Shown: one piece after another, positions 5,210-34,173 of the stretch
How the letters are laid out: every line of letters starts with the position of its first letter
Numbering within the stretch: position 1 is the stretch's first letter
Source of the DNA: Chitinophaga pinensis
Lineage (GTDB): Bacteria; Bacteroidota; Bacteroidia; Chitinophagales; UBA10324
DNA length: 34,173 nt
Reading direction: 5' to 3'
Assembly (NCBI GenBank): GCA_945903305.1
Contig: CAMDOA010000025.1
Location: 1-34,173 of the forward strand
Program-made: the position numbers and the translations under genes
Notes under the pieces: generated by a model
Database searches by the model: none
What the model was told of the DNA's origin: nothing
Seen by the model: only the letters and a program-made list of their open reading frames with translations

Positions 5210-5896
5210 ATGCACCAATCTCAAATATCAATAATGGAAAATCAGGAAAAAGACTTGCCTACCGACAATAACGACTTAAATATTCAACCATCGGCTGAAA
5301 AATCAGCAGAGGAAGTAATGAATGAAATAGAAAATGCAGCAACAGAAAATTCTTCAAACGAACCAGGCAAATCGTTTGAAGAGCTGGAAGAAAAAGCCGA
5401 AGGTTTGTTAGAAAAAATTGGTTTCGGAAAAAAAGACAAGCACAAAAAAGAAGCACAAGAGTTAAAAGTGAAACTGGAAGAAATGACCGACCGCCATCTT
5501 CGCCTGGTTGCTGATTTCGAAAACTTTAAAAAACGGAACGCTAAAGAAAGATTAGAGTGGATGAAAAATGCGGGGCAGGATATTATTCAATCCATACTAC
5601 CTACGCTTGATGATTTCAATCGTGCGATGAAGCAAATGGAAAATTCAACAGACATTGCTTCAGTAAAAGATGGTGTGCAACTCATTCACAATAAATTAAA
5701 ATCGACGCTTGAATTGCGCGGATTAAAACAATTAGAATCCATTGGTCAGGAATTTAATCCTGAAGTGCATGAAGCAATAACTGAAATTCCAGCCCCAACT
5801 GAAGACCTGAAAGGAAAAGTGGTGGATGAAATTGAAAGCGGTTATTCGCTGAACGATAAAATGATCCGATTCGCTAAAGTGATAGTTGGAAAATAA
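5210..5896 (+). CDS. grpE: Nucleotide exchange factor GrpE
   Basis: GrpE releases ADP from DnaK so that the chaperone cycle can turn over. The protein is 228 residues from this ATG; a second in-frame ATG at 5234 (MENQEKDL) has a more A-rich upstream region and may be the true start. Residues about 10-65 are acidic and probably disordered. A coiled coil follows at about 80-115 (KLEEMTDRHLRLVADFENFKKR, the GrpE hallmark), then the four-helix region and the C-terminal beta domain with the signature FNPEVHEAI and GYSLNDKMIRFAKVIVG. It precedes dnaJ by 116 bases; dnaK is not in the window. The gap to dnaJ holds a REP-like inverted repeat. Confidence 0.96.
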   Translation: MHQSQISIMENQEKDLPTDNNDLNIQPSAEKSAEEVMNEIENAATENSSNEPGKSFEELEEKAEGLLEKIGFGKKDKHKKEAQELKVKLEEMTDRHLRLVADFENFKKRNAKERLEWMKNAGQDIIQSILPTLDDFNRAMKQMENSTDIASVKDGVQLIHNKLKSTLELRGLKQLESIGQEFNPEVHEAITEIPAPTEDLKGKVVDEIESGYSLNDKMIRFAKVIVGK

Positions 5897-5923
5897 CTCT
5901 TCGGCAACTCTACAACAACTCTA

Positions 5924-5986
5924 CGACAAGCTCAGAGTGACAGTCGTCTTTTTTTTAACTTAGGCGTTGTCAGTCTGAGCTTGTCG
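5924..5986. repeat. REP-like inverted repeat between grpE and dnaJ
   Basis: The left arm CGACAAGCTCAGAGTGAC (5924-5941) and right arm GTCAGTCTGAGCTTGTCG (5969-5986) are reverse complements over 18 bases with one mismatch. The 27-base loop includes a run of eight T at 5950-5957 region. The word GAGCTTGTCG is familiar from palindromic intergenic repeats (REP-like) scattered in many bacterial genomes. The higher GC content of the arms stands out from the surrounding AT-rich gaps. The hairpin could dampen or protect the grpE-dnaJ message. Confidence 0.75.
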
Positions 5987-6012
5987 ATGACCGAATGAAC
6001 AAATAAACAGAA

Positions 6013-7197
6013 ATGGCAAAAAGAGATTACTACGAAATTTTAGGTGTCAACCGCAATGCCTCTCCCGATGAACTTAAAAAAGCTTATCGAAAGGTGGCTA
6101 TGCAGTTTCACCCCGACCGCAACCCCGGCGATAAAGAATCGGAAGAAAAATTTAAAGAAGCAGCCGAGGCTTATGATGTTTTAACTGATAAGGAAAAAAA
6201 AGATCGATACGATAGGTTTGGCCATCAGGGGATGAGTGGAAATGGCGGCGGACAAGGCGGTGGCTTTAGTGGCGGCGGCATGAACATGGAGGATATTTTC
6301 TCTCACTTCGGCGATGTGTTTGGCGGGCATGAAGGCGGAGGCGGTAGTCCGTTCGAGAGTTTCTTTTCCGGCGGTCGAAGCAGCGGCGGGCAGCGAAGCA
6401 GAGGTGTTCGCGGCGGAAATCTTCGCATTAAAATCAGTCTTACTTTAAAAGAAGTTGCTGAGGGCGCACAAAAAAAACTGAAGGTAAAAAAATATGTACA
6501 GTGCGATACCTGTCATGGTAACGGAGCAAAAGATAAATCGTCGTTCAGCACCTGTAATACTTGTAAAGGTTCAGGGCATGTTCGTCGTGTGACCAATACT
6601 ATTCTCGGGCAAATGCAAACGACTACAACTTGCCCAACTTGCAATGGCGAAGGTCAATCCATTACTGCCAAGTGTACTGCATGTAAGGGTGAAGGCCGTA
6701 TGTGGGGCGAAGAAACAATTACAGTTGACATACCTGCCGGAGTTACTGAAGGTATTCAACTCAGTATGGGCGGGCGCGGAAATGCCGGCGAGCGGGGCGG
6801 CCACAATGGCGACCTGGTAATTCAGATTGAAGAAATTCCAAGTGAAGATTTAAAGCGCGATGGCATTAATATTATTTACGACCTGCACATCAGTTTTATG
6901 GATGCCGCATTGGGAACAAGCATTGAGGTTCCAACAATAGATGGCAGAGCCAAAATAAAAATAAAACCGGGCACTCAGGCTGGCGAAATTTTTCGTCTGA
7001 AAGGGAAAGGACTTCCCAACCTGAATGCTTATGGCAAGGGCGATCAATTAATTTATGTAAACATCTGGACACCAAAAACACTTAATGGCGAAGAAGAAAA
7101 AATACTGGAGAAATTAAAAAGCCATCACAATTTTCAGCCCCATCATAATAAGAGTGAAAAATCTTTCTTCGAAAAAATGAAGGATTATTTTAATTAG
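6013..7197 (+). CDS. dnaJ: Chaperone DnaJ (class A, Hsp40)
   Basis: DnaJ delivers unfolded clients to DnaK and stimulates its ATPase. The 394-residue protein has all class A parts in order: a J domain at 1-70 with the HPD motif at 33-35; a Gly/Phe-rich linker at about 75-135; a zinc-binding domain from Cys164 with four CxxCxGxG units ([32 protein letters not shown]); and C-terminal client-binding domains that include [13 protein letters not shown] and the [10 protein letters not shown] segment. The length is normal. The start ATG at 6013 has A-rich sequence in front and gives the standard [12 protein letters not shown] beginning. Its stop codon TAG is directly followed by the purN ATG, so the two genes are probably co-transcribed and coupled. 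Confidence 0.98.
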
Positions 7198-32806: not shown

Positions 32807-33937
32807 ATGAAAAAAATTGTAATACTCGGAGCAGGAATGGTTGGCCGCACCATTGCGAAAGATTTGGCAGCAGATTATAAAGTGTTGTCGGCTGACATCA
32901 GCGACGAAAGTTTATCGCTACTTAAAAACACGGCGAACATTCAAACACAAAAATCAAATCTTGCTGATGAAAATGAAATCGAAAAATTAATTGCCGATGC
33001 TGATTGTGTGGTGGGTGCAGTTCCGGGCTTCATGGGTTTTGAAACGCTGAAAACTATTCTCAAAAACAAAAAGCAGGTAGTTGATATATCATTCTTCCCA
33101 GAGGATGCTTTTTTGTTAGATGACTTGGCAAAACAAAATATTGTAACAGCCATAGTTGATTGTGGTGTGGCACCGGGTATGGATAATATTATTCTCGGTT
33201 ATCACAACCAACGAATGAAGATTGAAAATTTTGAATGCCTGGTTGGTGGTTTGCCATTCGAACGAAAATTACCCTTTCAATACAAAGCACCTTTTTCTCC
33301 AATTGATGTAATAGAAGAATACACTCGCCCTGCTCGATTGGTGGAGAATTTTGAAATAATTACACGACCTGCACTAACCGAACCAGAATTCATTCACTTC
33401 GAAAACATCGGCACACTCGAATCATTTAACTCAGATGGCTTGCGCAGCATTCTGAAAACAATGAAAATTAAAAACATGAAAGAAAAAACATTGCGCTATC
33501 CTGGTCATAGGCAGGCAATGGAACAATTACGCGATATGGGATTTTTCAGCGAAGAAGAAATTTTGGTGAAAGGAAAAACAATTCGGCCGATTGATGTGGC
33601 CGCTGCGGTTATGTTGCCAAAATGGAAGTATCAAACAGGTGAAGAAGAATTTACCGTGATGCGGGTAATTGTGGAAGGAAATGAAAACGGAAAAGCAATC
33701 CGATACACTTACGATTTGTTTGATCAATACGATAAGGAAACTCAAACATCATCCATGGCGCGAACGACAGGTTTCACTTGTACTGCTGCTGTAAGATTAT
33801 TATTGGAAAAAAAGTATTCACGAACAGGAATTAATCCACCTGAATATTTAGGCGAAGAAGAAACTAATTTTCATTACCTACTCGATGAATTGAAAAAAAG
33901 AAAGGTGATTTATAAAATGAAAAAAGAGAACTTGTGA
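32807..33937 (+). CDS. Saccharopine dehydrogenase-like oxidoreductase
   Basis: The 376-residue protein has an N-terminal Rossmann fold (KKIVILGAGMVGRTIAKDL, residues 2-20) for NAD(P), and the segments DADCVVGAVPGFMG (about 62-75), VVDISFFPED and VDCGVAPGMDNI, which are typical of saccharopine dehydrogenase-like and lysine 6-dehydrogenase enzymes (PF03435). The C-terminal catalytic half includes LRYPGHRQAMEQLRDMGFF. The family acts in lysine breakdown or related amine chemistry; the substrate cannot be read from sequence. The start is set at ATG 32807, just after a promoter-like element. The end is followed by a long inverted repeat shared with the convergent T9SS cargo gene. Confidence 0.85.
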   Translation: MKKIVILGAGMVGRTIAKDLAADYKVLSADISDESLSLLKNTANIQTQKSNLADENEIEKLIADADCVVGAVPGFMGFETLKTILKNKKQVVDISFFPEDAFLLDDLAKQNIVTAIVDCGVAPGMDNIILGYHNQRMKIENFECLVGGLPFERKLPFQYKAPFSPIDVIEEYTRPARLVENFEIITRPALTEPEFIHFENIGTLESFNSDGLRSILKTMKIKNMKEKTLRYPGHRQAMEQLRDMGFFSEEEILVKGKTIRPIDVAAAVMLPKWKYQTGEEEFTVMRVIVEGNENGKAIRYTYDLFDQYDKETQTSSMARTTGFTCTAAVRLLLEKKYSRTGINPPEYLGEEETNFHYLLDELKKRKVIYKMKKENL

Positions 33938-34002
33938 TTTTAGAATTGTGAATTAATATTTTAATACCGTCGTCTTTATTAAAATCTTAATTCTAAAATC
34001 AC
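33934..34002. repeat. Long imperfect inverted repeat between convergent genes
   Basis: GTGATTTTAGAATT (33934-33947) and AATTCTAAAATCAC (33989-34002) are exact reverse complements over 14 bases, 41 bases apart. The inner parts also pair partly (ATTTTAATA words), so one long AT-rich hairpin is possible. The left arm begins inside the stop codon of the upstream gene. It may be a two-way terminator. Confidence 0.55.
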
Positions 34003-34014
34003 AATTCTGAAATT

Positions 34015-34173
34015 TTATTTCTGGATAATCAATCGCTTCGTTAATGTCAGCTCTTCGTTATTTAACACCACTTCATACAAACCATCAGCAATATTTTCAA
34101 GAAGTATTTTTTGTGATGAAGCATTTTTACCTGCCGCAATTGAAGAATTATAAACTAACTGACCAACGATATT
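34015..34173 (-). CDS. C-terminal T9SS sorting domain of a secreted protein, 5' part outside window
   Basis: The reverse strand is open from the window edge to a TAA at 34017-34015, giving the last 52 residues of a protein. They read as a type A sorting domain of the type IX secretion system (Por secretion tail): NIVGQLVYNSS, then ILLENIADGLYEVVLNN, then LTLTKRLIIQK just before the stop. The pattern G-x-Y plus a KxxIxK-type end is diagnostic. The cargo protein lies to the right of the window, and its function is not visible. The domain is cut off after outer-membrane passage and exchanged for a lipid-linked anchor. Confidence 0.85.
   Translation of the reverse strand, partial: NIVGQLVYNSSIAAGKNASSQKILLENIADGLYEVVLNNEELTLTKRLIIQK

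Follow-up and report, generated by a model that had tools for sequence, protein, structure and literature searches.

A TGTC-tagged, head-to-head hairpin pair between grpE and dnaJ of Chitinophaga pinensis and the likely link of its repeat family to small GIY-YIG nucleases

The window analysed here is a stretch of 34,173 nucleotides from Chitinophaga pinensis (contig CAMDOA010000025.1, positions 1–34,173). On its forward strand grpE (positions 5210–5896; Pfam GrpE, 141 bits) is followed by dnaJ (positions 6013–7197; Pfam DnaJ, DnaJ_C and DnaJ_CXXCXGXG), and the gap between these two Pfam-confirmed genes holds a long palindrome at 5924–5986, as the initial annotation had stated. That annotation described an 18-base inverted repeat with one mismatch and a T-rich loop; we measured 19-nt arms (5924–5942 and 5968–5986) that are 95% complementary and 25 nt apart, and the spacer between them (5943–5967) is indeed T-rich. 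The RNA fold of 5915–5995 was calculated at -39.3 kcal/mol, whereas 200 dinucleotide-shuffled sequences averaged -17.9 (sd 3.26) and none of them folded as well (z = -6.56). An intrinsic terminator, that is a GC-rich hairpin with a T run, was considered and rejected, as a scan allowing loops of 3–8 only gave no terminator-like site in 5700–6300 and no T run was seen by eye 3' of the palindrome stem. Two weak matches to microRNA families in Rfam lay far under the cut-offs and were taken as chance.

Alignment of 18 units from this genome showed that the palindrome is a head-to-head pair of units of the form TGTCA-NN-CT-GAGCTTGTCGA-AG-NN. Unit A lies on the minus strand at 5914–5943 with its head (TGTC) at the inner end (covariance model, 41.4 bits, E 1.7e-6), and unit B lies head-to-head with it on the plus strand at 5967–5996 (39.4 bits, E 5.5e-6); both were among the units on which the model was trained. 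Counted over the 34-kb window only, the 12-base word does not rise above chance (two matches at up to two mismatches, with as many in 32 of 100 shuffles). In the complete 3.12-Mb genome, the core GAGCTTGTCGA has 17 exact occurrences against one for the reversed control, so the arm word recurs as had been claimed. The 14-base arm end, with at most one mismatch, was found at seven places in the genome, two of which are the palindrome's own arms, and the reversed control at none. The covariance model R1, trained on the 18 units, gave at least 41 matches at E ≤ 1 and at least 32 at E ≤ 0.01, all counts being lower bounds; 18 of the latter 32 are circular because R1 was trained on these very units, and the other 14 are new. 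Among the 32 matches there were five head-to-head pairs, the grpE-dnaJ pair being one of them, and no tail-to-tail pair within 100 bp. Elsewhere in the genome an open frame contains two units separated by 105 bp (L012, G000:C10:25520-25654), both of which code for VTLSLSKS in an apparent signal peptide, and one further unit (L020, about 1150–1210) has a loop lengthened by an insert between TGTCACACTGA and AGCTTGTCGAAGTGT.

The stem of the repeat family covaries. In the 18-unit alignment both stem sides were changed in 20 cells, a value reached by none of 500 shuffles, which gave 6.4; two of the five covariation measures were unexceptional, being equalled or exceeded in 46 and 95 of the 500. 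A larger set consisted of 160 distinct units from fetched loci, chosen solely by GTC plus the loop, so that the constancy of the loop is set by the selection. Stem pair 2 was Watson-Crick in 154 of the 160 (54 expected), pair 3 in 151 (41 expected) and pair 4 in 152 (129 expected); pairs 1 and 5 showed no pairing excess, pair 1 being Watson-Crick in 92, which is at chance level. At pair 3 each of the four Watson-Crick types is represented, and pair 2 is C-G, T-A or G-C. The tag base before GTC (GTC itself being the selection rule) was T in 152 units and C in five, and the base 3' of the stem showed no preference. The REP-like, dispersed character that had been proposed for the palindrome is thus backed by core recurrence, model matches and stem covariation alike, and the palindrome is one copy of a scattered REP-like hairpin repeat.

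Relatives in the phylum and the genus were examined for the repeat. In the phylum sample, 27 of 247 genomes, this one included, had R1 matches at E ≤ 1e-4, with per-genome counts that are lower bounds. Within the genus (E ≤ 0.01) the species studied here had at least 32 units, G001 at least 6, G002 at least 108, G003 at least 11, G004 at least 44 and G005 at least 45, and alternating unit arrays were present in G002. The grpE-dnaJ pair itself was carried by this species and, in changed form, by its congener G005; it was absent from the gap in four of the six genus species examined, which implies gain in one lineage or loss in others. The gap is AT-rich and 123 and 129 nt long in G004 and G002, respectively, and 5 nt in G003 and G001, and in G014, from another genus of the same family, it holds a loop-bearing unit that lacks the tag. 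A clean empty or filled site was sought at grpE-dnaJ and five other loci, and no precise scar was found; the difference between L038 and L103 resembles a tandem duplication, and the alignments of L046 and L050 were poor. Comparison of orthologous units between congeners showed them at unchanged positions, and no movement was seen. The AT-rich gaps of G004 and G002 (L061, L062) contain another repeat, of the AGTACTTGTATTTACT type, and a long, imperfect AT-rich inverted repeat lies near the contig end of the present window (33923–34020).

These distributions bear on the possibility that the palindrome is a local regulatory hairpin which sets the level of grpE or dnaJ mRNA and is kept for that role; the initial annotation had offered a structure that may set the dnaJ:grpE ratio. 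When transcribed, the pair would form a strong RNA hairpin that lacks a terminator-like tail and separates two genes of the same direction, and it might conceivably influence expression; the very stable fold at this position and the occurrence of the pair, although altered, in G005 speak for such a role. Since the TGTCA unit is found at many unrelated places, the pair is missing from the gap in most of the genus species examined and the terminator scan (loops of 3–8 only) and the inspection for a T run were both negative, we consider this explanation improbable.

The initial annotation had also suggested that the element is moved by a RAYT, a Y1 tyrosine transposase. The search that it proposed yielded two RAYT-type genes in this genome (L027 and L028), at 66–68 bits and hence under the model cut-off of 80, and there is in addition one IS200-type gene (L008). 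RAYT-type matches were moreover obtained in 23 of the 24 unit-bearing genomes searched, and the head-to-head pairs look like REPINs. Because the arm recurs and RAYT-type genes exist, the suggestion does not fall on a single-copy arm or on a genome devoid of such genes; their presence alone is no link to the repeat. No unit was found near either RAYT-type gene or the IS200-type gene of this genome, and by eye each of the three has other repeats alongside. Among 31 RAYT-type loci fetched from unit-bearing genomes (L028 included, all at correct positions), one had a unit within 300 bp and none had any of the four loop types described below within 400 bp. GTAG REPs and REPINs resemble the present system in that inverted pairs of tagged hairpins stand beside a matching, co-varying enzyme gene. 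They differ from it in the 5' tag, which is GTAG or GTGG and not TGTC, in the enzyme class, and in that the RAYT gene is flanked by its repeat. Movement by a RAYT is accordingly unsupported, and a classical REPIN appears highly improbable here. The IS200-type gene (L008:1100-1930) has CCGACTTTAGTCGG-type repeats upstream, which constitute a separate repeat family.

A different enzyme class emerged from the congener G002, in which a nine-unit cluster surrounds a 101-aa GIY-YIG gene (L119:1936-2238; Pfam, 70 bits). A Pfam GIY-YIG search of 59 genomes gave 30 loci, seven of which, among the matches listed, had units within 300 bp of the gene, and covariance-model matches agreed with the unit placement at these 30 loci. 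With 60 more stretches added, 126 GIY-YIG frames were scored. The resulting tree split deeply in two. In the first group, 34 of 46 rows lay near tRNA genes; in the second, which holds all eight unit-flanked rows, this was true of 1 of 59. Two or more C/TGTC-tagged hairpins were present within 300 bp of 20 of 59 non-tRNA, non-tandem nuclease genes (about 1% in shuffles), compared with 1 of 39 tRNA-class genes and none of the 25 dnaJ loci used as controls. The TGTCA unit itself lay within 300 bp of 9 of the 59 non-tRNA nuclease genes, none of the 39 tRNA-class genes and 2 of the 25 dnaJ loci, namely L060 (the orthologous pair) and L066. The comparison of 9 of 59 nuclease genes with 1 of 30 RAYT loci, a set in which the window of L320 is misplaced, was not significant (p 0.15). 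The panel comprised frames of 60 to 220 aa with flanks of at least 150 bp, after removal of the duplicate L155 and, for the 59, of tandem genes; rows outside 70–170 or 75–175 aa and repeated proteins were dropped from the trees. In the unit-rich genomes G117, G086 and G273 no units were found at the nuclease genes examined, among the matches listed. The unit-rich congeners G004 and G005 gave weak matches to the G002 protein, located at tRNA genes with no unit close by; these tRNA-locus genes (L157 in G005, L160 in G004) were considered as partners of the repeat and rejected. Small GIY-YIG genes at tRNA loci form a separate clade (L157, L147, L150, L182, L183, L185, L186, L208–L211), often arranged in tandem together with repeated fragments of tRNA, which resembles homing into such loci.

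Next, loci were collected by protein similarity. Fifteen nucleases were scanned against named genomes and the best 80 of 539 relatives were kept, mostly from Bacteroidota, with a few from Nitrospinaceae, Nitrospirae, Ignavibacteriae, Eremiobacterota and Peribacteraceae. The query alignment holds eight unit-flanked nucleases, and these loci are not independent of the first panel; L280 and L127 are apparently the same locus. There were 113 units in the 47,169 bp within 300 bp of the nuclease genes, compared with 8 in the 137,785 bp at 900–1800 bp, and units stood on both sides of the gene at 21 loci and on one side at 11. The T1 loop, whose unit was fixed before the named loci were looked at, was present no more than 400 bp away at 32 of the 80 loci and at 1.4–1.8 kb at 1 of 80. 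When four loop motifs (T1–T4) were considered, 76 of 80 loci had one near the nuclease and 5 of 80 farther out, a count that is partly post hoc because T2–T4 were written after seeing the named loci. These results provide strong evidence that the units are placed beside GIY-YIG nuclease genes in relatives. It is also evident that nuclease subclade matches loop type: a tree of 98 nucleases required 12 changes of loop label, compared with 49.7 when labels were shuffled (0 of 200 as low), although such trees use roughly 100 columns and the clustering is inflated by related rows. More than one loop type was seen at 3 of the 98 loci. The nuclease alignment has invariant Y, G, R, H and E columns, which we take to be the catalytic residues of GIY-YIG enzymes.

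A similar placement was seen in further replicons. A tblastn search of a plasmid collection with nuclease L193 gave 33 records, and in 12 regions that were read, tagged hairpins lay within 450 bp of the gene at 11 (43 hairpins in 10.8 kb), the Rhizobium tumorigenes locus having none; the outer 500 bp per locus contained 8 in 6 kb, at 6 of the 12 loci. A gonococcal protein shares 65% identity with L193 across 86 aa, and its gene has CGTCATTCCCGCGCAGGCGGGAAT-type (dRS3-like) hairpins on both sides. The enzymes linked to the repeat in relatives are likely to be small GIY-YIG nucleases and not RAYTs.

In the present genome, no small GIY-YIG gene was found and nothing matched the G002 nuclease protein. 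Two GIY-YIG matches occur in frames of 615 and 462 aa, which from their size would be UvrC and a fusion protein. As the assembly consists of 138 contigs, a nuclease gene may lie in a gap; given that no small GIY-YIG gene was found, the grpE-dnaJ copy is probably immobile and probably inert now.

We propose, with a probability of roughly 0.7, that the palindrome is a TGTCA-tagged head-to-head pair whose unit most likely serves a single subclade of small GIY-YIG nucleases as its site. The unit would act as a single-strand hairpin with an unpaired TGTC tag, a short stem and the 11-nt loop GAGC(C/T)TGTCGA, and nearly any complementary bases may be allowed at the two middle stem pairs. One subclade would read the tag, the stem shape and the loop letters, probably in single-stranded DNA, and neighbouring subclades would go with other loops. 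The nuclease would presumably cut the unit, and cutting together with host repair would spread it; GIY-YIG enzymes hydrolyse DNA and, to our knowledge, are not known to rejoin it, so that spread would need host repair. In this species and in G005, the grpE-dnaJ gap has either acquired the pair or retained it. More generally, C/TGTC REPs across bacteria might represent a second REP world beside that of GTAG and RAYT, made up of miniature elements. GIY-YIG nucleases that read the loop would cut the hairpins in single-stranded form and host repair would copy the unit, which would spread it; subclade and loop would co-evolve and amount to a specificity code that can be read. This wider proposal is a tentative one, to which we give somewhat less than even credence.

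Alternatively, the nucleases could, instead of spreading the repeats, treat them as dispersed marks for cutting and thereby restrict how single-stranded DNA is taken up or recombined, the copies arising via rare duplication or recombination. That repeats persist in genomes for which the search gave no small nuclease gene would agree with this, as would the Neisseria Ssn nuclease, which reportedly modulates transformation, whereas the range of copy numbers within the genus (from at least 6 to at least 108) and the presence or absence of the pair at the same gap suggest turnover. We regard cutting marks as a possible explanation, though one less likely than not.

A 2025 paper on the Ssn family is said to describe site-specific, single-stranded GIY-YIG nucleases with their Neisseria repeat, and reportedly pairs such nucleases with repeats in Neisseria and beyond. 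That family resembles the present system in reportedly consisting of small GIY-YIG proteins with their own repeats, and the gonococcal homolog lies among dRS3-like hairpins; a small GIY-YIG gene close to the repeat was seen in relatives, while none was found in this genome. If so, the TGTCA system would be a Bacteroidota variant of a known nuclease-repeat pairing. Should that paper cover the general pairing, what is added here is the tie to Bacteroidota REP pairs, the stem covariation and the loop code. The dependence of loop type on nuclease subclade is open to testing with oligonucleotides, and a set of nucleases matched to likely sites is on offer. With a candidate enzyme class, the cause of the spread can be put to the test.

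Published repeats with a similar tag are the CGTC REPs (Di Nocera et al. 2013, PMC3733652). They share with the TGTCA unit a C/TGTC tag outside the stem at one end, a hairpin, an intergenic location and the lack of a transposase link, and head-to-head dimers predominate, in line with the five such pairs and no tail-to-tail pair in this genome. They have stems of 8–9 bp, A-T first pairs, loops of 4–5 nt and a CCA-like tail (PMC3733652), as opposed to the 5-bp variable stem, the constant 11-nt loop and the absence of tail preference seen here; on stem, loop and tail the TGTCA unit therefore falls outside all four published CGTC families, as far as these are described there. CGTC repeats are stated not to be associated with transposase genes, their mover being left open, and Neisseria CGTC-1 is equated with dRS3 (Di Nocera et al. 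2013, PMC3733652). The GIY-YIG link thus offers a candidate enzyme class for CGTC repeats said to lack a transposase. Among the matches listed, our literature search gave no publication linking these repeats to GIY-YIG genes: the string GIY does not occur in the available text of PMC3733652, GIY-YIG is not mentioned in that of PMC6006769, nor GIY in that of PMC12306157; PMC1564403 was consulted as well.

The closest solved relatives of the G002 nuclease were the UPF0213 proteins BH0048 (1zg2, E 1.4e-12) and EF2693 (1ywl, E 3.4e-9), which are named hypothetical proteins in the PDB and for which we know of no repeat link. In a phage collection, 24 records contained distant relatives of the L129 nuclease. 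Finally, nuclease-hairpin cassettes were observed between sufB and sufC in Azospirillum (L336) and between an MmeI-type enzyme and the DISARM gene drmA in Planktothrix (L338).
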